Assembly (NCBI GenBank): GCA_002869235.1
Contig: PKTI01000022.1
Span: forward strand, 1-34,566
Length of the DNA: 34,566 bases
Source: Candidatus Parcubacteria bacterium
GTDB lineage: Bacteria > Patescibacteriota > Patescibacteriia > UBA1558 > GWA2-36-10
Direction: 5' to 3'
This document shows positions 2,322 through 23,136 of this stretch, one piece after another (position 1 is the stretch's first letter; each line of letters opens with the position of its first letter). Under the pieces are notes generated by a model. It was not told the DNA's origin. It searched no databases and saw only the letters and a program-made list of their open reading frames with translations. The position numbers and the translations under genes are program-made.

Positions 2322-3668
2322 TTAATTTATTTTATACGGCTTGATATCTTTGTAGTAATTTGCACCTTTTTCGTTAAATATTTTATAGTGCTTGAGTATT
2401 ATGTCCAGGGCTTCTTCATTGGTCTCAGCAACATACACGTTGTCTATGTCATGAGGGCTGATAAATCCTACTTTCATAGGATATTGTTTTATCCAGGCAT
2501 ACAATTTTTTCCAAATTTTCCCCATAAGAATAATAGGTATAGGATGTACATGTTTTACTTGGGTAAGCTGCAAAGCATAAAAAAATTCTAAACATGTCCC
2601 TATACCGCCTGGCATCACAACTACTGCACCAGATAGGGCCATAAAATAATCCAAGCGATTTGAAAATTTATCGAAATCTTTTTTTATTTCTAAATATTGA
2701 TTATCTTTTATTTCCCATGGCAACGTGATTCTAAGGCCAAATGAATCTGATTTATTATCCTTATCTCCAGCTGCGTGTCCAGAATTTGCTGCTATCATCA
2801 GACCAGGACCTCCTCCTGTCACTATGTCAATATTATTCTTGCCTATTTCTTTGGCTAGGTCAAAGGTCTGTCGGTATAATTTGTCATTTTTTTTGATCCG
2901 GGCCGAACCAAATATAGCTACACGGAATTCTCTTAGATTCAATTCTTGTTTTATTTTTTGATCTACCAAATCTTTTTTATGCAGCCATTTTTCAGCTTTG
3001 TCTATAATATCTTTCATTATTTTTATTGTTTCTACAGGGTATTTGCCTATAGCTGTTTCTTCAGAAAGCATAACGGCATGTGAACCATCAAATACAGCAG
3101 TAGCCACATCATTGACCTCAGCTCGAGTAGGTTTATTTTTTTTAGTCATGGAAAGCATCATTTCTGTAGCAGCAACAAAAAACTTTTGTTTAAGTAAGGA
3201 TTTTTTGGTAAATTCTTTTTGTAGGGGAGGTATGTCCGCCAATGAAACTGCATTTGCCAAATCACCGCGTCCAATCATAATACCATCTGAAGCATCTAGT
3301 ATTTTGTCAAAATTTTTGACTCCAACACGGGTTTCAATCTTTGAAATCACAAAACAACCAGGCAAAGAACGACGTACAGCTTCAATCTGTTTTGGGCTTT
3401 CAGTAAAAGACAGGGCAATATATTTTATATTATTTTTCTGGGCGTATTCTAGTATATCTAGATTTTTGATATCCAAAATCACTTGGATTTTTTTCCGGAC
3501 TTTAATTTTTTTTAGGTTATTTAATATACGATCATATTGTTTGATGTCTCCATATGAAGTATTGATGCGCACAAAATCAAAACCTTGCTCAGCCATTTTT
3601 TGAAAAGTTTTAAGATTCAAAGATGCTGGTCCGATAGTGGCAATAATGTTTGTTTTATTTTTTTTCAT
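2322..3668 (-). CDS. Fusion: lid-less pyruvate-kinase-like barrel + LOG/TIGR00730 Rossmann domain
   Basis: One uninterrupted 448-aa frame encodes two enzyme-like domains. Residues 1-228 match the pyruvate kinase TIM barrel: start NIIATIGPAS, RINTSYG (canonical RLNFSHG), SKIET with K110 and E112, DGIMIGRGDLA with D136, AATEMMLSM and TRAEVNDVATAVFDG. The mobile B (lid) domain, normally about 100 residues after the LDTKGPEIR strand, is absent: ILDIKNLD at 64-71 runs straight into the next helix. The PK C-domain is also absent. Residues about 247-425 are a LOG/lysine-decarboxylase-like fold with GGGPGLM (285-291) and PGGIGTCLE (353-361), the family's PGGxGTxxE signature. LOG proteins hydrolyse nucleoside 5'-monophosphates to base and ribose-5-phosphate. 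What the PK part does without a lid is unknown; it may bind or sense PEP/pyruvate. No frameshift is seen at the join. Confidence 0.88.
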   Translation of the reverse strand: MKKNKTNIIATIGPASLNLKTFQKMAEQGFDFVRINTSYGDIKQYDRILNNLKKIKVRKKIQVILDIKNLDILEYAQKNNIKYIALSFTESPKQIEAVRRSLPGCFVISKIETRVGVKNFDKILDASDGIMIGRGDLANAVSLADIPPLQKEFTKKSLLKQKFFVAATEMMLSMTKKNKPTRAEVNDVATAVFDGSHAVMLSEETAIGKYPVETIKIMKDIIDKAEKWLHKKDLVDQKIKQELNLREFRVAIFGSARIKKNDKLYRQTFDLAKEIGKNNIDIVTGGGPGLMIAANSGHAAGDKDNKSDSFGLRITLPWEIKDNQYLEIKKDFDKFSNRLDYFMALSGAVVVMPGGIGTCLEFFYALQLTQVKHVHPIPIILMGKIWKKLYAWIKQYPMKVGFISPHDIDNVYVAETNEEALDIILKHYKIFNEKGANYYKDIKPYKIN

Positions 3669-4310: not shown

Positions 4311-6896
4311 ATGAAAAAAGAGGCTGAAGCTCGAATAAAAATAAATAAGTTACTTGAAGATTCAGGGTGGCGTTTTGATGATAATAAAAACGGTAAAGCC
4401 AATATCCAACTTGAGGCGGGCGTAAAGTTCAATGAACTGGATCAAAATTTGGAAAATGCTATAACCAGCGACGGTCGTCGTGGGGCTATTGATTTTTTGT
4501 TACTGGACAAAGATGGTCGTGCCCTTGTTGTTTTAGAAGCAAAAAAAGAATCAATTGATCCGTTTTCTGCCAAAGAACAAGCTAGAAATTATGCTCGCAA
4601 CGTCAATGCACGTTTTGTTATTCTTTCAAACGGCAATATTCATTATTTTTGGGATACCAAACATGGCAACCCAGAAGTAATTTCAAAATTCCCTACCCAA
4701 GAGTCAATTACTCAATTTGAAAAATGGGAGCCAAATCCAAAAGAGCTTGTTGAAACAAAAGTAGATGAAAATTATATTATTGAATCGCAAATGCCGGTCT
4801 TTGCCAACGATCCGGCTTTTCAAAACACTGACACTCGAGGAGAATTTCTAAAAAATAATAATTTAAAACAACTCCGACCATACCAAGTAAATGCAATAAA
4901 AAGCTTACAAACTTCAGTGCAATCAGGACAGAATCGTTTTTTGTTTGAAATGGCAACAGGCACAGGAAAAACTCTTATTTCCGCTGCTGTCATCAAGCTA
5001 TTCCTTAAATCTGGTAATGCACGTAGAGTTTTATTTTTAGTTGATCGCCTTGAACTTGAAGATCAAGCATTTAAAGCATTTAGAAATTATCTAGGCAAAG
5101 ACTATGCAACAGTGATTTACAAAGACTCACGAGATTCTTGGCAGAATGCGCAAATTGTAGTTTCCACAATTCAAACGTTTCTAGCAGGCGACAGATACAA
5201 AAAAGAATTTTCACCAACCGATTTTGAATTTGTAATTTCTGATGAATCACACCGATCTATTGGTGGAAATAGTCGTGCTGTATTTGAATATTTCGTTGGT
5301 TATAAATTAGGGTTAACTGCTACACCAAAAGATTACCTCAAAGGATTTGACGGAGAAAACACTGACACGCAAAGAGAATTTGAAAGAAGACAACTTCTTG
5401 ATACTTACAAAACTTTTGGTTGTGAATCAGGTGAACCAACTTTTCGTTATGATCTTGTCGCCGGAGTAAATGAAGGTTTTTTGATTAATCCGATCGTGGT
5501 AGATGCTCGAACAGAAATAACCACTGATTTACTTTCTGATGAAGGATTAGCGGTCCATAAAACAAATGAAGATGGTGAATTTTTTGATGAAATATTTACT
5601 GAGCGACAATATGAAAAGAAATTTTTCAATGAAGAAACGAACATCGCTATGTGTAAGGCTTTTATGGATAACGCACTTTATGATCCGGTAGCCAAAAAAA
5701 TGGATGTAGAGTTATTTGGCAAATCTATCGTTTTTTGTGTTTCCCAAAAGCATGCCGCTAAAATTACAAATATTCTAAACAAGTTGGCTTTTGAAAGATG
5801 GCCAGATAAATATAATGAATCAGATTTTGCTGTTCAGGTTACTTCTCTTGTACAAAATGCTCAGCAAATGACTATAAATTTTGCTAATAATATGCTTTCC
5901 GGTAAGGCGCAACAACCAGAAGGTTATGATTCCAGTAAAACTCGAGTTGCCGTTACTGTAGGCATGATGACTACTGGTTATGATTGCCAAGATATTTTAA
6001 ATCTAGCCTTGATGCGTCCTGTTTTTTCTCCGGCAGATTTTGTGCAGATAAAAGGGCGAGGTACTCGCAAATATATTTTTGAATATGAGGATTATAATTC
6101 AGACGAAACTATTATTGAACCAAAAGAGCATTTTAAATTTTTTGATTTCTTTGCCACCTGCGAATATTTTGAAAATGAATTTCCTTATGATGAAAAAATT
6201 AAGCTACCTGCAATTAAACAAATAAAAACTCCTGAAGATGCAACTGCTAATCAAGTAGAACAGGGTGAGTTTGTGGACGAAAACGGAAATAAAATTTTTA
6301 AAGGGCCAATTGACTTGGCGGAAAGTGATGAAATTGCATCAGTTACTGAAAAATCAGTTGGAGTAGATGGTATGCGTATTGATCGAGAAGGATTTAGACG
6401 GGCAGTCGAAGAAGATATCCTTAGTAATGAAACGCTTAAAAATCTTTGGGAAAATGGTGACAGCGAAGAAGCGGAGGATTTTGCCAAAAAACACGTACTT
6501 GATAAGCCAAAATATTTCCTTAATTTAGATAAAATTAGAAAAATTTTCAATATTGATCGTCGAATTAGTGTTAAAGAATTTTTGCAGGTTGCTTTTGGTG
6601 ACAAAGACGCTTTTGAAATGAAAGATGATTTACTGGAATCAGAATGGGATAAATTCCAAGAAGTAAATTTTAATAATCAAGAAATTGATCCGGAAAAATA
6701 CCAGGCAATAAAAATGTTTTTCAAGGCGTATATTGTAGATGAAGAAGTCCGCGATATTATCAAACGAAACCAGCCGGCTGACTTTTATCACTGCGCTTCA
6801 TTTGATTTTTCCGAATATCAAAGGCTAAATGGTTTTAAAGAGCTCGTGCCACGATACATTAAGGATTATGTATCACTTAATACTTTTATGAATTAA
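4311..6896 (+). CDS. hsdR: Type I restriction endonuclease subunit R (HsdR)
   Basis: DNA-translocating motor and nuclease of a type I restriction-modification complex, 861 aa. The N-terminal nuclease domain shows the PD-(D/E)xK core: D61 in GAIDFLLLD and E76-A-K78 in VVLEAKKES. A superfamily 2 helicase follows: Walker A ATGTGKT (about 215-221), motif II DESH (311-314) instead of DEAH, motif III LTATP, and motif VI QIKGRGTRKY. The C-terminal part is helical, as expected for the segment that docks on the methylase. The gene opens a tightly packed plus-strand operon; only 5 nt separate its stop from the methylase-specificity fusion. It is shorter than the classical ~1000-1100 aa EcoKI/EcoR124-type subunits but normal for the compact HsdR group. 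Confidence 0.93.
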   Translation: MKKEAEARIKINKLLEDSGWRFDDNKNGKANIQLEAGVKFNELDQNLENAITSDGRRGAIDFLLLDKDGRALVVLEAKKESIDPFSAKEQARNYARNVNARFVILSNGNIHYFWDTKHGNPEVISKFPTQESITQFEKWEPNPKELVETKVDENYIIESQMPVFANDPAFQNTDTRGEFLKNNNLKQLRPYQVNAIKSLQTSVQSGQNRFLFEMATGTGKTLISAAVIKLFLKSGNARRVLFLVDRLELEDQAFKAFRNYLGKDYATVIYKDSRDSWQNAQIVVSTIQTFLAGDRYKKEFSPTDFEFVISDESHRSIGGNSRAVFEYFVGYKLGLTATPKDYLKGFDGENTDTQREFERRQLLDTYKTFGCESGEPTFRYDLVAGVNEGFLINPIVVDARTEITTDLLSDEGLAVHKTNEDGEFFDEIFTERQYEKKFFNEETNIAMCKAFMDNALYDPVAKKMDVELFGKSIVFCVSQKHAAKITNILNKLAFERWPDKYNESDFAVQVTSLVQNAQQMTINFANNMLSGKAQQPEGYDSSKTRVAVTVGMMTTGYDCQDILNLALMRPVFSPADFVQIKGRGTRKYIFEYEDYNSDETIIEPKEHFKFFDFFATCEYFENEFPYDEKIKLPAIKQIKTPEDATANQVEQGEFVDENGNKIFKGPIDLAESDEIASVTEKSVGVDGMRIDREGFRRAVEEDILSNETLKNLWENGDSEEAEDFAKKHVLDKPKYFLNLDKIRKIFNIDRRISVKEFLQVAFGDKDAFEMKDDLLESEWDKFQEVNFNNQEIDPEKYQAIKMFFKAYIVDEEVRDIIKRNQPADFYHCASFDFSEYQRLNGFKELVPRYIKDYVSLNTFMN

Positions 6897-6901
6897 AGCT
6901 T

Positions 6902-9346
6902 ATGCTTACATCAGAAACAAAACGACATATTGATGCGGCTAGGCAAGTCCTTGTGGGCGTAGTGCCAAATCCAACATCACAAATTGACCAAATCACCAAC
7001 GCACTTATCTATAAATTTATGGATGACATGGATCAATCAGCTATTAAGGCTGGTGGTTCGCCGTCTTTTTTTACTGATGATTTGGAAATATATGCTTGGA
7101 CTCGTCTGATGGATAGCAGACTTGGCAATCAAGAAAGAATGAATTTGTATTCAGAGGCACTGATCAAATTTTCACAGGCCAAACAATTGCCCGAGCTGTT
7201 TAGAAATATTTTTAAATCTGCTTTTTTGCCATATCGCTCACCGGAGGTTTTTGGATTATTTTTAAAAGAAATAAACTACTTTGATTATTCTCATCCAGAA
7301 GATTTGGGCGATGGTTATGAATATTTACTTTCTATAATGTCATCTCAAGGCGATGCTGGACAATTCCGTACCCCTCGTCACATTATTGATTTTATTATTG
7401 ATGCTATCAATCCGACCAAAGGCGATAAGATACTTGATCCAGCCTGTGGCACAGGTGGATTTTTGGTGGGTTCTTACAAACATATTCTTGAACAACATGA
7501 TGGTAAAGATGATCCGAATAAAAAAGAAAAACCGCTTACACCAGACGACAGAAAAAAACTTTTTCAAAATTTTGAGGGCTACGATATTGACCCTGGTATG
7601 GTGCGAATTGCCCAGGTCAATATGTATCTCCATCAATTCAAAAATCCAAAAATATTTCAATATGATGCCTTGGGAATGGATGAGCGCTGGAATGACAAGT
7701 TTGATGTAATACTTGCCAATCCACCGTTTATGTCGCCAAAAGGTGGTGTACGTCCGCATAGTAAATTTAGTGTGCAATCTAGTAGGTCAGAAGTTTTGTT
7801 TGTGGACTACATCATGAATCACCTCAAGCCAAAAGGACGAGCGGGTGTGATTGTACCAGAAGGAATAATTTTCCAATCGGGCAGTGCACACAAACAGCTG
7901 CGCAAAAACCTTGTCAATGACGGACTATATGCGGTGGTCAGTTTGCCTAGCGGTGTATTCCAGCCATATAGTGGAGTAAAAACCAGTATTTTACTTTTTA
8001 ATAACGAACTAGCAAAAAAGACCGAAGATATTTTATTTATAAAGATTTTAAATGATGGCTTTGATCTTGGTGCACAAAGGCGCGCTAATAATAGGAATGA
8101 CCTGCCTCATGCACTAAAAACTTTACAAGCACAAGATATTACAATACAAACAGGCAGTGAAAATTCATTATTATTAGAAAACAGTCTCTTTGCATGGAAT
8201 GTAAGTAAATCCAGGATAGCTGAAAATGGCGACTACAATCTTTCCGGAGATCGCTATCGTACAGCGGTCGATTACGCCAATTCTAAATGGCCGATAGTGG
8301 AGTTGGGAGAAATTACAGAGATTAGAATGGGAGAAACTTTAATAAAGGGTGATTTGACTGGAAATGGACGTCCAATTTTTAGCGCTGACACTTCTGACGA
8401 GCCCTGGGCATATTCAGATAAAACAAAATTGTCTTTTGGTAAGAAAACGATTGTTATTGGTGCTCGAGGAACAGTCGGCTCAATTAAACTCCCTCAGGCA
8501 GATGATTTTACTTGTACACAAACAACGATAGCCGTGACTGTGAGCAAAGAAGTAAATGAAAAATATATATATTACCAATTGAAAAATTTTGATTTTAGTT
8601 CGATCAAAGAGGGTGTTGGTATTCCGATGATAACTGTCAAAGCTGTGTCAAAAATTAAAGTCCCTCTCCCGCCTCTAGAAATCCAAGAGAAAATCGTGGC
8701 GGAGTTGGACGGATACGCAGGCATTATCGCCGGCGCCAAACAAATAGTTGATAATTGGAAGCCAAAAATTGATATTGATCCAGAGTGGGAGAAAGTGAAG
8801 TTGGGAGATGTTTGCGATATTTTTGGTGGCGGCACTCCACCGCGAACAGAAGAAAAATATTGGGGTGGAAATATTCCTTGGCTTTCAGCAAGATATTTTT
8901 CAAATGATCATAGGATTAAAGGTTGCGAAATGATAACCGAGCAAGGATTGAAAAATAGCTCAAGTAAAATTGCTCCAAAAGGTTCGACAATATTAATTAC
9001 ACGCGTATCAGTTGGGAAGTTTGCAATAGCCGACCAAGACTATGCAATCAATCAAGACTTAACAGCTTTAGTGTCAAAGGGAAAGAATTTAGATCCGCAG
9101 TATTTATGGCTTATTACCGAAATAGTAGCCGAAAGAGTTAAAGATAGTGCTATTGGTGTAGGTGTAACTGGAGTTACTAGAGATTTTGTCATCAATCAAG
9201 AAATCCCCCTCCCACCTCTCGAAATCCAAAAACAAATCGTGGAAAAAATCGAAGCCGAGCGCGCCCTTGTGGAATCTGCCAAAAAACTGATTGATATTTA
9301 TGAAGAAAAAACCAAAGAAACTATTGCTAAACTTTGGGAAGAATAA
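6902..9346 (+). CDS. Fused type I methyltransferase-specificity protein (HsdM-HsdS)
   Basis: A single 814-aa frame joins the modification and DNA-recognition subunits. Residues 1-455 are the N6-adenine methylase: a helical N-terminal domain, AdoMet motif I DPACGTGG (179-186), the GYDIDPGM acidic loop, and catalytic motif IV NPPF (273-276). Residues about 463-814 are HsdS-like with two target recognition domains. TRD1 begins WPIVELGEI (463) and TRD2 begins WEKVKLGDV (629); each ends in PLPPLEIQ followed by a long conserved helix. In most type I systems HsdM and HsdS are separate genes and the enzyme is M2S1R2; a fusion forces 1:1 stoichiometry, so either the assembly differs or only one set of TRDs is used. 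The frame crosses the join without a stop, and no frameshift is needed. Confidence 0.93.
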   Translation: MLTSETKRHIDAARQVLVGVVPNPTSQIDQITNALIYKFMDDMDQSAIKAGGSPSFFTDDLEIYAWTRLMDSRLGNQERMNLYSEALIKFSQAKQLPELFRNIFKSAFLPYRSPEVFGLFLKEINYFDYSHPEDLGDGYEYLLSIMSSQGDAGQFRTPRHIIDFIIDAINPTKGDKILDPACGTGGFLVGSYKHILEQHDGKDDPNKKEKPLTPDDRKKLFQNFEGYDIDPGMVRIAQVNMYLHQFKNPKIFQYDALGMDERWNDKFDVILANPPFMSPKGGVRPHSKFSVQSSRSEVLFVDYIMNHLKPKGRAGVIVPEGIIFQSGSAHKQLRKNLVNDGLYAVVSLPSGVFQPYSGVKTSILLFNNELAKKTEDILFIKILNDGFDLGAQRRANNRNDLPHALKTLQAQDITIQTGSENSLLLENSLFAWNVSKSRIAENGDYNLSGDRYRTAVDYANSKWPIVELGEITEIRMGETLIKGDLTGNGRPIFSADTSDEPWAYSDKTKLSFGKKTIVIGARGTVGSIKLPQADDFTCTQTTIAVTVSKEVNEKYIYYQLKNFDFSSIKEGVGIPMITVKAVSKIKVPLPPLEIQEKIVAELDGYAGIIAGAKQIVDNWKPKIDIDPEWEKVKLGDVCDIFGGGTPPRTEEKYWGGNIPWLSARYFSNDHRIKGCEMITEQGLKNSSSKIAPKGSTILITRVSVGKFAIADQDYAINQDLTALVSKGKNLDPQYLWLITEIVAERVKDSAIGVGVTGVTRDFVINQEIPLPPLEIQKQIVEKIEAERALVESAKKLIDIYEEKTKETIAKLWEE
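8662..8700 (+). repeat. First HsdS linker repeat
   Basis: Encodes the PLPPLEIQEKIVAEL end of TRD1. It is closely similar at DNA level to 9205-9242 (CTCCC-CCTCT-GAAATCCAA-AAATCGTGG), the corresponding end of TRD2. Such in-frame repeats are the usual crossover points for exchanging recognition domains. Confidence 0.75.
9205..9242 (+). repeat. Second HsdS linker repeat
   Basis: Encodes PLPPLEIQKQIVEKI at the end of TRD2 and matches 8662-8700. The roughly 540-bp interval between the copies contains TRD2, so recombination between them would delete or swap it. Confidence 0.75.
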
Positions 9347-9348
9347 TT

Positions 9349-10086
9349 ATGAAAACTAAAAACTTAATCATTAAAATTGTAAATCGGTATATCGGCGTAG
9401 AAAGTGGTTATCTAGGAGATTTTACATACAGGACTCATAGCGAATTTTATCCTGAATATTGTGATTTGGTAAAAGATCCGTATTCTATAGAAGGGACCAC
9501 AAGAGAACGATTTATTACGATCTTTCAAAATTCTACACCAAAAGAGCAGGCAAAGATTATTCGGGGTATCATTGAAAGATTTCCTATTGGGGAGGGCCCA
9601 AAAACTAGAACAAATGAACTACAAACATCCTTATTAAAAGAAGCTGAAATCTTGGATAACGGCGATTATTTATCGGAGCCTGATTTATTAAGTGCTGATC
9701 ATGTTCTTGAAATATTAGAAGATGCAAAAAGCCTAATAGAACATAGAAAAGCTGCAAGCGCGGTAGATAGAGTTCATACTGCATTTCATGGGTATTTGCG
9801 GGAAGTTTGTAAAAATGAAGGGATTAATTTTTTAGAAAAAGATGGACTGGTCGTATTAGTAAAAAAAATTTTCTCCGAACATACAAAATTAAAAATTGCA
9901 GTAAAATCAACAGAAGTACAAAATATTGTAAGAAATCTTGCCTCCATCTCAGATTCTCTTAATCCTGTGAGAAATCAAGGAAGTAGAGCACACCCAAATG
10001 AACATGTATTAGAGGAGCCAGAAGCAGTATTAATTATAAATACAGTTAGAACATTACTTAGTTATATTGAATCAAAAATCAGGTAG
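9349..10086 (+). CDS. AbiJ-like abortive infection protein
   Basis: A 245-aa protein read from the ATG at 9349, 2 nt after the HsdMS stop; an upstream TTG frame overlaps that gene and is rejected. Residues about 8-80 (RYIGVESGYLGDFTYRTH, EFYPEYCDL, EGTTRERFITIF) match, from memory, the N-terminal domain found in AbiJ-type abortive infection proteins. The C-terminal third (about 120-245) looks like an Abi_C/HEPN-type helical domain: R208-N-Q-G-S-R-A-H215 fits the HEPN Rx4-6H ribonuclease motif, and a hydrophobic helix follows. Such proteins are thought to cleave RNA and halt growth when phage attack is sensed. Operon placement after the restriction-modification genes fits a backup role. No Shine-Dalgarno is visible. 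Confidence 0.72.
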   Translation: MKTKNLIIKIVNRYIGVESGYLGDFTYRTHSEFYPEYCDLVKDPYSIEGTTRERFITIFQNSTPKEQAKIIRGIIERFPIGEGPKTRTNELQTSLLKEAEILDNGDYLSEPDLLSADHVLEILEDAKSLIEHRKAASAVDRVHTAFHGYLREVCKNEGINFLEKDGLVVLVKKIFSEHTKLKIAVKSTEVQNIVRNLASISDSLNPVRNQGSRAHPNEHVLEEPEAVLIINTVRTLLSYIESKIR

Positions 10087-10090
10087 CTAT

Positions 10091-10885
10091 ATGTATGAAG
10101 ATCCTCAAAAAATTCTTAACTATTTACCCATTCGCAAGAATAAACTCGAAAATGACTACATAGAGCACCTTTGGAATGCTTTTCTAGCACTAGAAACTTC
10201 GGAAAGTACAGGAAAATCTTTTTCAATCATGCCGTTTCACCTGCTTTTTATGCTAGCGTTACAATACAAAATTTTAAGAATTTCCCAAATACAAACTGAA
10301 TCTTGTAACCTTTTCTTTTGTGGAGTTGCTGGTAGAAGTAAAGACGTGCTATTGTCAGATGAAAAATCAGTTTTTGATATAGCTTTAATCAATGAGCGTA
10401 CCATTCCGGAAATTTTTCAATTGGTTGGGTTGGACACAAAGGGTATTAAAAGTATTAAAGATTTAATTGACCAGAGAAATAATACTCTTGCGCATGCCAA
10501 GGGTGGTATAGAGATAAGACCTGAGGAAAAAGTTGATAAATACATAAAGACATTAGAGGCTATTCAAAAAAGTTTTTCTCAAATTAATCAAGATTTAATT
10601 AATACTTGGTTGTATGATATACAAGGTTGTGAGGATGCTGAGCAATATTTAGAAAATAATTTTCTTATATATAGATTAACTTATCGTGATTTTAGTGAAA
10701 TTATTAAAATATTACTTGGAGCCCCACAATTAGATTTTGATCAATGGGAGCAAGTTGTAAATAAAGGATTGGAATTAATTTATGATCAAACCATTGAAGC
10801 ATTAAAGATAATAGCTAAGGATAATTTAGATAAAGATAAAGTATTCAATGCTGTAAAAGTGTTGGAAGAAAATGGGGAGTTATAA
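10091..10885 (+). CDS. HEPN-like protein, last gene of defence operon
   Basis: No named family is recognised in this 264-aa, mostly helical protein. The start is the ATG at 10091, 4 nt after the preceding stop; a TTG frame overlapping the upstream gene is rejected. The most telling segment is IKDLIDQRNNTLAHAKGG, in which R129-x5-H135 fits the HEPN Rx4-6H motif in a helix-loop setting (DLIDxRN...AH). This suggests a ribonuclease or nucleotidyltransferase-partner toxin fold. The N-terminal half has a helical region with SIMPFHLLFMLALQYKILRI, perhaps a dimer core. With the AbiJ-like gene it gives two adjacent HEPN-like proteins, which could pair with each other or act as separate effectors triggered by the restriction complex. 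That link is inference from operon position. Confidence 0.5.
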   Translation: MYEDPQKILNYLPIRKNKLENDYIEHLWNAFLALETSESTGKSFSIMPFHLLFMLALQYKILRISQIQTESCNLFFCGVAGRSKDVLLSDEKSVFDIALINERTIPEIFQLVGLDTKGIKSIKDLIDQRNNTLAHAKGGIEIRPEEKVDKYIKTLEAIQKSFSQINQDLINTWLYDIQGCEDAEQYLENNFLIYRLTYRDFSEIIKILLGAPQLDFDQWEQVVNKGLELIYDQTIEALKIIAKDNLDKDKVFNAVKVLEENGEL

Positions 10886-18218: not shown

Positions 18219-20339
18219 ATGTGGGAGAAAATTGAAACTTTCCATTGGACAATACTAGTTGCAGTTATATCTGTGCTAAGTGTTTTATTGTTCCAACAAC
18301 AAGTATTGGCTCAGTGGACTTCGCCAGATGAAGTGCCTGGTGGTACAAATTTGGACAATTTGGTGGTTACCCCAATGCAAGAAGATTTGAATCTAGGCGG
18401 TTTTAAGATAAATGATCCGGCTACTGATGCGACTTTTGTCATAGACCCTTCAGCAGCTGTAGATATAGAGGCCGCTAAAGCTGATTTTGATGAGTTGTGT
18501 ATAGCAGGAGCATGTAATGTTGAATGGCCAAGTGGTGCAGGAGGAGGTTATTGGACGCAAGCGGGGTCAGATTTGTACTATAGTTCTGGAAACGTTGGTA
18601 TTGGTACAGGATCACCTGATCGTTTATTGGTTGTAGAGGCTCCTGGTTCAGATCCAGGTTCATATCCTACTGATGCAGCCAGAGTAAGGATTACAGCCAA
18701 TGGTTCTGGTAAGCAAGCTCCAGGATTGGAATTTTATAATGTAGAAAGAGACGCAGGTAAGGTTGCCAAGATAGTATCACGCGATGAATATATATTTAGC
18801 TTTGAGAGTGAAAATAAAGATACCGATGAGGATAATGCTAGTTATGAGCAGTTGATGACTCTGGATAAGAGTTCTGTTGGTACAGAATTGCGTATTCAAA
18901 ATAAAGATAGTGAATCATCAGCTCAGATAGTTTTTGAGGAAGGTTTGGAACCTGATAATTTCGCTATAAGGTACAATGGATCTTCCAATGTAGCCCCACT
19001 CAACAATGGTTATAACAATTGGCTTGAGTTTTGGGGACAAGACGCTCTACAGGGCAACGCTCCAGCTGATCCAATTATGATAATGGAAAGAGATTACGAC
19101 ACCTCATCTGCTCCAACACCAACTTATCAGGGTGTAGGTATCGGTGTACCAGCTAGAACCCACATTGATGCCAAGTTGAGAGTACAAAATTATGGCACAG
19201 AAGATATTTTGCAGCTTTATGATGGTAGTACCAAAGTGGTCACAGTAGAGGATGGTGGTAACGTAGGTATTGGTACTGACAACCCAGGTTCATCTTTGGA
19301 AATAAGAGGTGCTGGATCTGATGAGTCTAATCTGAGATTTAGAAACGATGGGGGGGACATGAAAATTATTTTTCAAGAATACGATGCACCACCAACTCCT
19401 TATGGTGATATCTCTATAAGGTACAATGGCAATAATCCAGATATATATAATGGTTATTCCAATTGGCTTGAGTTTTGGGTAAGATCTCCATCTCAAGGCG
19501 CTACTTCTGGTGAAGCTTCATTGCAGGGTGGAAGACCTATTATGACAATGCAAAGAGATTATGAGCCATCCAAAGATAGCTATCGTGGTGTTGGTATTGG
19601 TGTGCCAACTAGACAAAATATCACAGCCAGACTAAGAGTACAGAATTTTGGTGATGAAGATATATTACAGCTTTATGATGATGAGGAATTATCATTTCAA
19701 GTATCAAATGGAGGATATGTGGGTGTAAATGGTCCAGTACACACTGGTGTCCCTGTTTTTATAAATGGCACCGGCAACAACGGTCTTAAGCTTTATTCTT
19801 ATGGACTTTATTCATACAACAATAGTAGTTTGGAATTAAAAGCTACCAACGATGTATATCTCAATCCTGGTCTCTACGACGGTGTAGGTATTGAGGTTTC
19901 AAATCCTCAGCAAATATTGCATGTCAAAAATCCAAATAGCTTTGCAGATACTTTGTTGAGATTGGAAAATGACAATGATGGAGCTACTTTTTCCAACCAA
20001 ACTACTCAAGTAGAATTTGCCAGAGGCCCAAACTGGACAACTGATTATTCTTGGGTTGGCCCAACCAGTGATAGTACTTTCGATGTTTGGACAATGGAAA
20101 ATGTACCAATGTTGTTTGGTACAAATGGTAGCGAAAGGATGAGGATAAATAGTACTGATGTTACTTTGAGTAATTATCTCAATTTGGCCAAAGTATCTAG
20201 TGCACCAGCTGGTACCGATTGTGACAGCGATGCGGAAATGGGCAGGGTCAAAGTGGACAATATAAATAGTGTTTTGTATATCTGTACTGGTGATCCTGGT
20301 GGAGGCATTCCAGGTTCTTGGAAGAGTCTAAGTTTGTAA
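18219..20339 (+). CDS. Secreted modular fibre-like protein 1 (NVGIGT repeats)
   Basis: A 706-aa secreted protein. Residues 1-31 form a Sec signal peptide ending QQVLA before QW. The body carries GNVGIGTxxP turns (about 123 and 348), a beta-rich repeat common in trimeric phage tail fibres and CPR surface proteins. Two copies of a module are visible: first about 232-350, second about 365-500, each with xIRYNG, NGYxNWLEFW, Px-M-RDY, GVGIGVP, RVQNxGxEDILQLYD. A C-terminal module (TDCDSDAEMGRVKV...LYICTGDPGGG) with two cysteines is shared with the next two genes. There is no class III (pilin) leader and no LPXTG. It has its own promoter and a strong terminator. It may be a surface or pilus-associated adhesin; that role is inferred from location. 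Confidence 0.75.
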   Translation: MWEKIETFHWTILVAVISVLSVLLFQQQVLAQWTSPDEVPGGTNLDNLVVTPMQEDLNLGGFKINDPATDATFVIDPSAAVDIEAAKADFDELCIAGACNVEWPSGAGGGYWTQAGSDLYYSSGNVGIGTGSPDRLLVVEAPGSDPGSYPTDAARVRITANGSGKQAPGLEFYNVERDAGKVAKIVSRDEYIFSFESENKDTDEDNASYEQLMTLDKSSVGTELRIQNKDSESSAQIVFEEGLEPDNFAIRYNGSSNVAPLNNGYNNWLEFWGQDALQGNAPADPIMIMERDYDTSSAPTPTYQGVGIGVPARTHIDAKLRVQNYGTEDILQLYDGSTKVVTVEDGGNVGIGTDNPGSSLEIRGAGSDESNLRFRNDGGDMKIIFQEYDAPPTPYGDISIRYNGNNPDIYNGYSNWLEFWVRSPSQGATSGEASLQGGRPIMTMQRDYEPSKDSYRGVGIGVPTRQNITARLRVQNFGDEDILQLYDDEELSFQVSNGGYVGVNGPVHTGVPVFINGTGNNGLKLYSYGLYSYNNSSLELKATNDVYLNPGLYDGVGIEVSNPQQILHVKNPNSFADTLLRLENDNDGATFSNQTTQVEFARGPNWTTDYSWVGPTSDSTFDVWTMENVPMLFGTNGSERMRINSTDVTLSNYLNLAKVSSAPAGTDCDSDAEMGRVKVDNINSVLYICTGDPGGGIPGSWKSLSL
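19359..19479 (+). repeat. Module copy shared with fibre-like gene 2
   Basis: Aligns without gaps to 20910-21030; I count 6 differences in 121 nt, mostly in third codon positions. Encodes the segment from MKIIFQEYDAPPTP through NWLEFW. Confidence 0.85.
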
Positions 20340-20355
20340 GTTATAATTATCAAAT

Positions 20356-20388
20356 CCGCCCCTCGCTTTGGCGAGGGGCGGTATTTTT
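20356..20388 (+). terminator. Strong terminator after fibre-like gene 1
   Basis: Perfect 11-bp GC-rich hairpin, arms 20356-20366 and 20371-20381 with loop TTTG, followed by TATTTTTG. Confidence 0.92.
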
Positions 20389-20413
20389 GTTTACAAGCCT
20401 TTTATGGTATAAT
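20387..20413 (+). promoter_or_regulatory. Promoter for fibre-like genes 2-3
   Basis: TTGTTT (20387-20392), 15 nt, TATAAT (20408-20413) with an extended TGG immediately before the -10. It abuts the preceding terminator. Confidence 0.5.
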
Positions 20414-20441
20414 AATAACAAATAAAAATTTATATACAATA

Positions 20442-21866
20442 ATGTTTAAAAAGATAAACAATCTTCATTTATCAATTTTGGTTGTTATAGTTTCTGTGCT
20501 TAGTTTGGTACTAATACAACAACAAGTGTTTGCTCAATGGAGTGATCCTATTGGTTTGCCAGGGGAGACAGGTACATTTAGTATAGTAGTCAATCCTTTG
20601 GCCGAGGACCTCAATATGGGAGGACACCAAATAAGTGATCCAGCCACTGATTCTAATTTTTTCATTAACCCTTCTTCTGATATAGACATTCAGGCCACCA
20701 AGGCCAATTTTGACAATCTTTGTATATCAGATGAATGTTACAGTGCGTGGCCAAGTATCGGTGGAGGATTGTGGTCTGAAAATGGATCAGATATATATTA
20801 TAATTCAGGAAATGTAGGTATTGGTACCAACAGTCCTAGTTCAGCTTTACAAATTCAGGGTAGTGTAGCTGACGGGGCCAATTTGAATTTAAGAAGCGAT
20901 TTTGGAGATATGAAAATTATTTTTCAAGAATATGATGCTCCACCAACTCCTTATGGTGATATCTCTATAAGGTACAATGGCAATAATCCAGATATATATG
21001 ATGGTTATGCTAACTGGCTTGAGTTTTGGGGCAGATCCCCAGCTCAAGGCGGTGGTAGACCTATTATGACTATGCAAAGGGATTATGTGCCCGCAGAAGA
21101 CAATTATCTTGGTGTAGGTATTGGCGTGCCATCTGAAGAAAATATTACAGCTAGATTGAGAGTACAAAATTATGGTACAGAAGATATTTTGCAGCTTTAT
21201 GATGATAATGAGTTAGTATTTGAAGTAGCTGATAATGGTTATGTAGGTGTAGATGGTCCTTATCACGATGGCGTGCCATTGTTTGTAAATGGAACTGGTT
21301 CAAATGGTTTGAAGCTCTATGCTGATGGAATTTTTTCGTACAACAATAGTATTTTGGAGTTAAAATCAAGCAATCACGTGTACCTCAATCCGGGTCTCTA
21401 CGACGGTGTAGGTATAGAAGTACAAGATCCACAACAGATACTGCATGTGAAAAATATTAATTCAAGTTTTTCTGACGCTAAGATAAGATTAGAAAACGGT
21501 ACTACTGGTTCATTTTTGAATGAAACTACTCAAGTAGAATTTGCTAGAGGTCCAAATAGCGCTAGTGACTATTCTTGGTTTGGTCCCAGTAGTTCTGGCA
21601 GTTTTGACATATGGACCAACGAAAATTTACCTATAATATTTGGTACAAATGGCACTGAAGATTTGAGAATATCTGATGACAATATAGTACTGCAAAGATA
21701 TTTCAAGTTGGATCAAAGTTTTAGTTTGCCGCCAGCAAATGACTGTTTGACAACAGCAGACATGGGTAGGATGAAGATAAATTCTACTGATGGCATTGTC
21801 TATGTTTGTGTTGGTGATCCTGACGGAGGGACTCCTGGAACCTGGAAAACAATAACAGCTCAATAG
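20442..21866 (+). CDS. Secreted modular fibre-like protein 2
   Basis: A 474-aa paralog of the preceding gene. The signal peptide (1-31, ending QQVFA before QW) has identical length. The next 70 residues follow the same plan (ATDSNFFINPSSDIDIQATKANFDNLCI, with Cys near 98 and 103). One GNVGIGTNSP repeat is followed by a single copy of the RYNG/NWLEFW/RVQNYGTEDILQLYD module, then a shared YxGVGIEVxxPQQILHVKN segment and the C-terminal NDCLTTADMGRMKI...VYVCVGDPDGG module. DNA identity to gene 1 across the central module is very high, implying recent duplication or gene conversion. It is followed at 31 nt by fibre-like gene 3 with no terminator between. Confidence 0.75.
   Translation: MFKKINNLHLSILVVIVSVLSLVLIQQQVFAQWSDPIGLPGETGTFSIVVNPLAEDLNMGGHQISDPATDSNFFINPSSDIDIQATKANFDNLCISDECYSAWPSIGGGLWSENGSDIYYNSGNVGIGTNSPSSALQIQGSVADGANLNLRSDFGDMKIIFQEYDAPPTPYGDISIRYNGNNPDIYDGYANWLEFWGRSPAQGGGRPIMTMQRDYVPAEDNYLGVGIGVPSEENITARLRVQNYGTEDILQLYDDNELVFEVADNGYVGVDGPYHDGVPLFVNGTGSNGLKLYADGIFSYNNSILELKSSNHVYLNPGLYDGVGIEVQDPQQILHVKNINSSFSDAKIRLENGTTGSFLNETTQVEFARGPNSASDYSWFGPSSSGSFDIWTNENLPIIFGTNGTEDLRISDDNIVLQRYFKLDQSFSLPPANDCLTTADMGRMKINSTDGIVYVCVGDPDGGTPGTWKTITAQ
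20910..21030 (+). repeat. Module copy shared with fibre-like gene 1
   Basis: Partner of 19359-19479 (offset 1551 bp). Confidence 0.85.
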
Positions 21867-21897
21867 TTTTAATAATAAGAATAATTAATAAATATCT

Positions 21898-23136
21898 ATG
21901 TTTAAAAGAGTAAACAATTGGCACTTATCAGTTATGATAGTCATCGTTTCTGTATTAAGTGTTATGTTGATAGAGCGCCAAGTTTCAGCGCAGTGGTCAC
22001 CACCATCTTCTGCTCCTGGTGGTTCGGCTATAAATCATTTGGTCGTAACACCCATGACAGAATCTCTAGATCTCAATGGGCAAACAATAACAGACCCAAA
22101 TACTGATGCTACTTTTGCTATCAATCCAGCTGGTCCAGTAGCTATTACAACCAAAGGAGCTTCATTTGATGGAGATGTCAGTATCATCAATAGCAACGAA
22201 CTTTGTTTTGATGGAGATTGTCGTGATTGGGCAGAATTGGAGGCAGGTATAGGCGATGATACAGATTGGACTGAAGATAAGAGCAATGTTTATCGTTTGG
22301 CAGGAAATGTAGGTATTGGTTTGAATTCTCCTGATTATAAGCTTCATATTTATGATGGCACTTACAATTTGAAATTTGACGGTAATGAAATATTACATTC
22401 AGAAGCTAGTCCTTTGTACATACGATCAGGTGCTGATATAAAGTTTGAACCAGATGCTGCTACCACCCAAGTGACTTTCAAGAGTTCTGGTTATGTAGGT
22501 ATAGGCACTGATACTCCAAACAAAAATCTTCATGTGTATGACGCTTCAGCCAATGCAGAAATTGATATCCAGAGTGGCGCTAGTGCTAATCACTGGGGTA
22601 TTTATCAAGATTCTTCTACTCAAGATCTAAGTTTTTGGAACACAGACAATAGAGTCACCTTTACGGATTCAGGCAGGGTAGGTATAGGTACTATAAGTCC
22701 CGCAGCAGCTCTAGAGGTTGATTCTACTGCTTCAAATATTACTTCTATAATTGCCAAATCAGACACAGCCGGCACTTATGCTTTGTCAGGAGAAAATACA
22801 GGTACAGGTGGTACAGGTGTATATGCAAATGGTTATTTTGGACTTATAGCCAACGGCAATCAATCTGGTGGCGCTGCTATATTGGCCACCAAGGGTAATA
22901 GTTCTTATGCTGGTATGTTTTTCGGCACAATTAGACTTTATAACTCAGGTGGCAACTCTTATTTACACTTAGCTACAGTATCTTCTGATCCTCCTGATAC
23001 GGATTGTGATTCTACCGATGAAAGAGGAAGGATGATTTACAATTATGTAGATGATTATCTATATATTTGTGATTATGATCCAGCCAATCCTTCAGGAGGA
23101 GGACATAAGGTATATCCTATGGAGGCTTTGCCATAG
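21898..23136 (+). CDS. Secreted modular fibre-like protein 3
   Basis: A 412-aa third paralog: same 31-residue signal peptide (ending RQVSA before QW), same NTDATFAINPAGPVAITTKGASFDGD segment, and the same C-terminal plan (DTDCDSTDERGRMIYN...LYICDYDP). The centre differs: at least three NVGIGLNSP/YVGIGTDTP/RVGIGTISP turns alternate with LHVYD and ALEVDS strands, and a glycine/threonine-rich stretch (SGENTGTGGTGVYANG) resembles receptor-binding tips of phage fibres. The N- and C-terminal modules are thus conserved while the middle changes, as expected for a diversified surface protein. The intramolecular chaperone domain usually ending phage tail spikes is absent. Confidence 0.72.
   Translation: MFKRVNNWHLSVMIVIVSVLSVMLIERQVSAQWSPPSSAPGGSAINHLVVTPMTESLDLNGQTITDPNTDATFAINPAGPVAITTKGASFDGDVSIINSNELCFDGDCRDWAELEAGIGDDTDWTEDKSNVYRLAGNVGIGLNSPDYKLHIYDGTYNLKFDGNEILHSEASPLYIRSGADIKFEPDAATTQVTFKSSGYVGIGTDTPNKNLHVYDASANAEIDIQSGASANHWGIYQDSSTQDLSFWNTDNRVTFTDSGRVGIGTISPAAALEVDSTASNITSIIAKSDTAGTYALSGENTGTGGTGVYANGYFGLIANGNQSGGAAILATKGNSSYAGMFFGTIRLYNSGGNSYLHLATVSSDPPDTDCDSTDERGRMIYNYVDDYLYICDYDPANPSGGGHKVYPMEALP

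Follow-up and report, generated by a model that had tools for sequence, protein, structure and literature searches.

We describe here a natural and previously undescribed family of pyruvate kinase (PK) barrels that have lost the lid domain, and we show that one member of this family is joined in a single polypeptide to a LOG-type nucleotide phosphoribohydrolase domain. The fusion gene lies in what we call the window, i.e., the whole stretch of 34,566 nucleotides that was analyzed and that forms contig C45 of the genome bin G000. While the fusion itself is rare and perhaps lineage-specific, the lidless family is the larger find. The lid of PK has been described as closing over the active site.

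Results and Discussion

The preliminary description of this DNA had noticed PK and LOG motifs in one frame. This is borne out by a single open reading frame (Table 1), whose product matches both PF00224 (5.4e-52, 177 bits against a gathering cut-off of 30) and PF03641 (3.3e-19, 69.8 bits against a cut-off of 27) in Pfam. The NCBIfam model pyruv_kin (TIGR01064) was matched with 6e-71 and 239 bits, which is under its curated equivalog cut-off of 306 bits, as expected for a barrel without a lid. The LOG half reached 4e-21 and 75.5 bits with TIGR00730, under the subfamily cut-off of 96 bits, and is a divergent subfamily within the TIGR00730 superfamily. When the PDB was searched with phmmer, the barrel matched PK segments on both sides of the missing lid, and the LOG half matched the solved LOG enzymes 9us2 (3.2e-30) and 5wq3 (3.8e-26). 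Pfam gave no match to the PK C domain (PF02887) in the fusion protein, where the LOG domain stands instead, and only a weak similarity of the barrel to the HpcH/HpaI aldolases.

Table 1. Position of the fusion gene and its parts in the window.
Feature	Position	Strand	Basis or description
Whole fusion gene	2322..3668	minus	448 aa, ATG start, TAA stop, no internal stop
Lidless pyruvate-kinase barrel, residues 1-232	2973..3668	minus	PF00224, AlphaFold model, fit to 3t05
Site of the lost lid, flanked by residues 72 and 73	3450..3455	minus	Alignment to E. coli PykF
Catalytic residues R34, N36, D66, K110, E112, D136, T168, S202, E204	3057..3569	minus	Mapped to PykF
Predicted continuous helix from barrel to LOG, residues 211-245	2934..3038	minus	DSSP on AlphaFold model
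LOG-type nucleotide phosphoribohydrolase domain, residues 245-448	2325..2936	minus	TIGR00730, PDB LOG matches
LOG motif GGGPGLM, residues 285-291	2796..2816	minus	Subfamily alignment
LOG arginine R338	2655..2657	minus	Aligned to the Arg of solved LOGs
LOG motif PGGIGTCLE with E361, residues 353-361	2586..2612	minus	Alignment to solved LOGs and subfamily

Alignment with E. coli PykF revealed that residues 73–177 of the latter, i.e., the lid of about 105 residues, have no counterpart in the fusion. Together with the unmatched PF02887 this confirms that the B domain and the C domain are both absent, as had been proposed. The PK catalytic residues that normally sit on the lid are missing. In the barrel, R34, N36, S38, D66, and K110 are identical to R32, N34, S36, D66, and K220 of PykF, and E112, D136, T168, S202, and E204 to E222, D246, T278, S312, and E314; the earlier statement that K110, E112, and D136 are kept is hence correct. 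The strand that reads LDTKGPEIR in PKs, which had been called degraded, is indeed changed, but the Leu found at the position of PykF T67 is usual in lidded PKs as well (47 of 49 sampled), so that this part of the claim does not stand.

The AlphaFold model of the fusion (mean pLDDT 92.6, pTM 0.73) was built from an alignment of 35 sequences. All eight strands of a complete barrel are present in the model. With VIA-align, the modeled barrel fits S. aureus PK 3t05 with a Z of 35.1 and 1.3 Å over 228 residues, and 7qdn, a human liver PK from which the B domain was deleted by design, with a Z of 34.3 and 1.4 Å over 230 residues. These structural matches cover residues 1–234 well, and the LOG half was assigned by its sequence. 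The join, for which a structure prediction had been called for, is modeled as one unbroken helix that leads from the barrel into the LOG domain.

When further genomes of the phylum, which is probably CPR/Patescibacteria as judged from genome size and gene content, were searched, lidless barrels of about 230–260 residues turned up in many families. The distance from the IGP motif to the KIE motif is about 95–108 residues in the no-lid forms, 119–129 in short-lid forms, and about 200–230 in most lidded PKs. Lid-poor barrels are found alone, with a PK C domain, and, in a short-lid form, with a phosphoglycerate mutase-type domain. Stand-alone lidless barrels without a LOG, which the preliminary description had not noticed, are common among the genomes searched. 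Lidless barrels with a PK C domain were seen in seven genomes of the genus g621 in family f254 (L141–L147; frames of 357–367 residues; C domain checked with Pfam in L143), and the short-lid barrel of G593 likewise carries this domain. Fusions of a short-lid barrel with His_Phos_1 exist in both orders (G718 and G508; loci L060:883-2325 on the minus and L063:829-2286 on the plus strand). Additionally, the lid-poor PK gene is adjoined by enolase in L060, L061, L063, and L065 (Pfam-confirmed in L060 and L065) and by a carbohydrate phosphorylase in L034, L036, and L056 (Pfam-confirmed in L034 and L056). The searches also returned frames of 345–365 residues, which are PKs without a C domain that keep the lid.

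In 15 of the 16 carrier genomes searched, the lid-poor barrel is the sole PF00224 match; the one exception, G496, has a lidded PK in addition to its lidless barrel. Enolase was found in all 16. R34, N36, D66, S87, K110, E112, R134, D136, T168, S202, and E204 are identical in all 28 no-lid and all five short-lid sequences, and the dN/dS values of two close pairs (0.088 and 0.10) show that the family is under selection. Glu203 is fixed in all no-lid sequences, mostly as TEML compared to the TQML of PykF. In a PK tree built with the lid columns left out, the no-lid sequences lie on one side of a branch with an SH-aLRT of 84, which is not firm support. The short-lid forms are placed among lidded PKs at two positions, and for this reason the lid was probably reduced on more than one occasion. 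The window barrel forms a group with f229 barrels that stand alone (bootstrap 92, SH-aLRT 88, 68–70% identity), and the short-lid forms with links to enolase and mutase belong to another clade.

Regarding the second half, LOG enzymes are established to release ribose-5-phosphate from nucleoside monophosphates. The closest LOGs (57–63% identity) come from f145 and families allied to it, where they are genes of their own. All 37 subfamily rows keep the glycines of GGGPGLM, and R338 is present in each of them as well as in 29 of 29 other LOG rows. E361 is invariant across the subfamily; T358 of the PGGxGTxxE motif is Ser in 6 of the 37 rows, and the rest of the LOG motifs does not vary. A gene for transketolase, transaldolase, 6-phosphogluconate dehydrogenase, or glucose-6-phosphate isomerase adjoins 28 of 34 subfamily loci. 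The same set adjoins only 2 of 21 loci of other LOGs of the phylum, a control that used identical reference proteins and can miss divergent neighbors; Pfam served for checks of the neighbors. This operon context suggests that the LOG subfamily feeds the pentose-phosphate route, and it supports the earlier proposal that ties the fusion to nucleotide salvage and ribose-5-phosphate. In the window's class, LOG-matching frames of 449–470 residues are found at L031, L116, L129, and L132; the match of L031 is clearly double.

Compared to known systems, the fusion resembles pyruvate kinase (PF00224, EC 2.7.1.40) in the fold of its barrel and in every catalytic residue that the barrel bears, but it has neither the B domain lid nor the C domain and carries a LOG. 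The barrel is like that of 7qdn. In contrast to 7qdn and the engineered lidless E. coli PK1, the family described here is natural and conserved, and it usually lacks the C domain as well. The engineered PK1 is reported to have kept catalysis, so that the lid is not strictly needed (Sugrue 2020, cited in PMC10176505), and PMC10176505 mentions PKs of some species without a C domain. The latter have the missing allosteric domain in common with the fusion but keep the lid. With the cytokinin riboside monophosphate phosphoribohydrolases of TIGR00730 (9us2, 5wq3, 5zi9), the LOG half aligns over the whole domain and shares GGGPGxM, the Arg, and PGGxGTxxE. Its subfamily has S-x-R-L-D and TCLE or TxLE where those enzymes have RK and TLDE, and the LOG of the fusion is joined to a PK. 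The nucleotide 5'-monophosphate nucleosidase PpnN (6gfl) shares the LOG core, and hydrolysis of nucleoside monophosphates is likely the same; PpnN has flanking domains of its own, and its match to the LOG half is weak (3.6e-08).

We infer, with confidence that is evenly balanced, that the fusion is an enzyme of central carbon metabolism with two activities. Its LOG domain would hydrolyze nucleoside 5'-monophosphates to the free base and ribose-5-phosphate, which would pass through the pentose-phosphate route into glycolysis. The lidless barrel would convert PEP into pyruvate by means of the lysine, the threonine, and the Glu/Asp metal site that it carries, and the phosphate acceptor would most likely be ADP. 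A route from nucleotides to pyruvate would thereby begin and end on one polypeptide. Action of the barrel on PEP in the last step of glycolysis is suggested by its status as sole PK match, by the conservation of its catalytic residues, and by the association of short-lid forms with enolase and mutase. Several points count against PK catalysis. The catalytic residues of the lid are missing, G496 has a lidded PK as well, and the short-lid forms associated with enolase and mutase belong to a clade other than that of the window barrel. Furthermore, bin G000 encodes a PPDK_N protein of the size of a PEP synthase, i.e., another path between PEP and pyruvate, which is a trait of the window genome on the condition that C45 is correctly binned. 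The engineered lidless E. coli enzyme is also said to have low activity only and to bind PEP weakly.

In the fusion, the LOG stands where PKs normally have their allosteric C domain. Since some bacterial PKs are reported to be responsive to ribose-5-phosphate (PMC11101554), a LOG at this place could couple both activities and may make the barrel responsive to AMP or ribose-5-phosphate. The fusion was seen once, and therefore conservation of the join cannot be shown. A broader version of the bifunctional reading appears doubtful to us: here, a lid-free PK family would be the sole PK of many small-genome bacteria, and the LOG swap in one lineage would let AMP both feed and control the last step of glycolysis.

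The preliminary description had considered the barrel a ligand sensor or the catalyst of another enolate reaction. We favor neither, because the family is conserved with invariant barrel catalytic residues, is usually the sole PK, and has short-lid kin beside enolase or fused to a mutase, and because catalysis is reported for the E. coli PK whose lid was engineered away (Sugrue 2020, cited in PMC10176505). It is unlikely that the barrel performs an ADP-free enolate reaction such as PEP hydrolysis, oxaloacetate decarboxylation, or an aldol reaction, for which the metal site is needed and the lid is not. Such a reaction would fit the retention of the E112/D136 site, K110, and T168 despite the loss of the lid residues, and also the aldolase similarity; the fixed Glu203 and the change to TEML hint at a shifted active site. 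PK is, however, by far the closest family in both sequence and fold, the context of the short-lid relatives is that of enolase and phosphoglycerate mutase, and fast PEP hydrolysis would waste energy.

Quite unlikely is a barrel that binds PEP, pyruvate, or an oxalate-like ligand without any phosphate transfer and tunes the LOG to the glycolytic state. The ADP-contacting residues are gone with the lid, and the helix predicted between the domains could carry a signal. Yet the stand-alone barrels without a LOG indicate that the barrel is more than a LOG regulator, residues of catalysis are invariant beyond those of ligand binding, and most carriers have no PK besides this barrel.

Among the genomes of the phylum that were searched, about 1,340 in number, the PK-LOG fusion was found only here, and the open-access literature gave no description of one, in line with the earlier remark that none was known. 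No relatives were seen among viral contigs, and a scan of genome contigs returned lidded PKs only, in an Omnitrophota and a Fusobacteriaceae MAG. A LOG gene adjoining a separate lidless PK gene was not seen at the loci read in other genomes. Four f229 genomes contain a stand-alone lidless barrel and, apart from it, a stand-alone LOG beside transketolase, showing that the two genes combined here are also present as separate genes within one genome.

The placement of the contig deserves care. C45 has no orthologue-like gene in the approximately 635 kb of the same-genus genome G001. The same is true for C5 and C20 of bin G000; C1, C10, and C58 do have such genes, and C36 and C57 are mixed. The tetranucleotide make-up of C45 agrees with the bin. 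The assignment of C45 to G000 is uncertain, and a mixed bin or a gene-rich lineage may lie behind these differences between contigs. The suggested look for another PK in the window genome found none, a result that is conditional on this binning and is weakened by the lack of orthologue-like genes in G001. On the same condition, the window genome has two enolase genes, on C58 and C57; the C58 enolase is 83% identical to that of G001 over 218 residues, the C57 enolase only 27%. We rejected the idea that the whole contig stems from an f229 organism, as the window recG is only 37–38% identical to f229 recG while the barrel reaches 69%.

Elsewhere in the window, a type I restriction locus (4311–10885) has HsdM and HsdS in a single open reading frame (6902–9346), next to which lie an Abi_C protein (9334–10086) and then another open reading frame; a tRNA-Arg (2133–2208) is located 2 kb from this locus. 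Upstream of a type IV pilus cluster, positions 18219–23136 encode three proteins in tandem that resemble each other at the N-terminus and match nothing in Pfam; the first two share 64% identity over 360 residues.

That the join is an assembly artefact merging two neighboring or unrelated genes is very improbable: the single occurrence, the separate genes in f229, and the missing counterparts of C45 in G001 would agree with it, but the join is in frame between two complete domains with a short, continuous predicted helix as the linker, both halves are alike in base composition, the contig agrees with its bin in tetranucleotides, and mis-binning of a contig could not create a fusion.

Conclusion

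In summary, a conserved natural family of lidless PK barrels, usually in genomes with no other PK, allows a direct test of whether PK needs its lid. PK had been found in only about one third of CPR genomes, and divergent substitutes remained possible (Jaffe 2020, PMC7304191). The lidless family bears on this open question of the PK-poor CPR genomes. Finally, the fusion and the operon context of both families point to a route that leads from nucleotides via ribose-5-phosphate to pyruvate.
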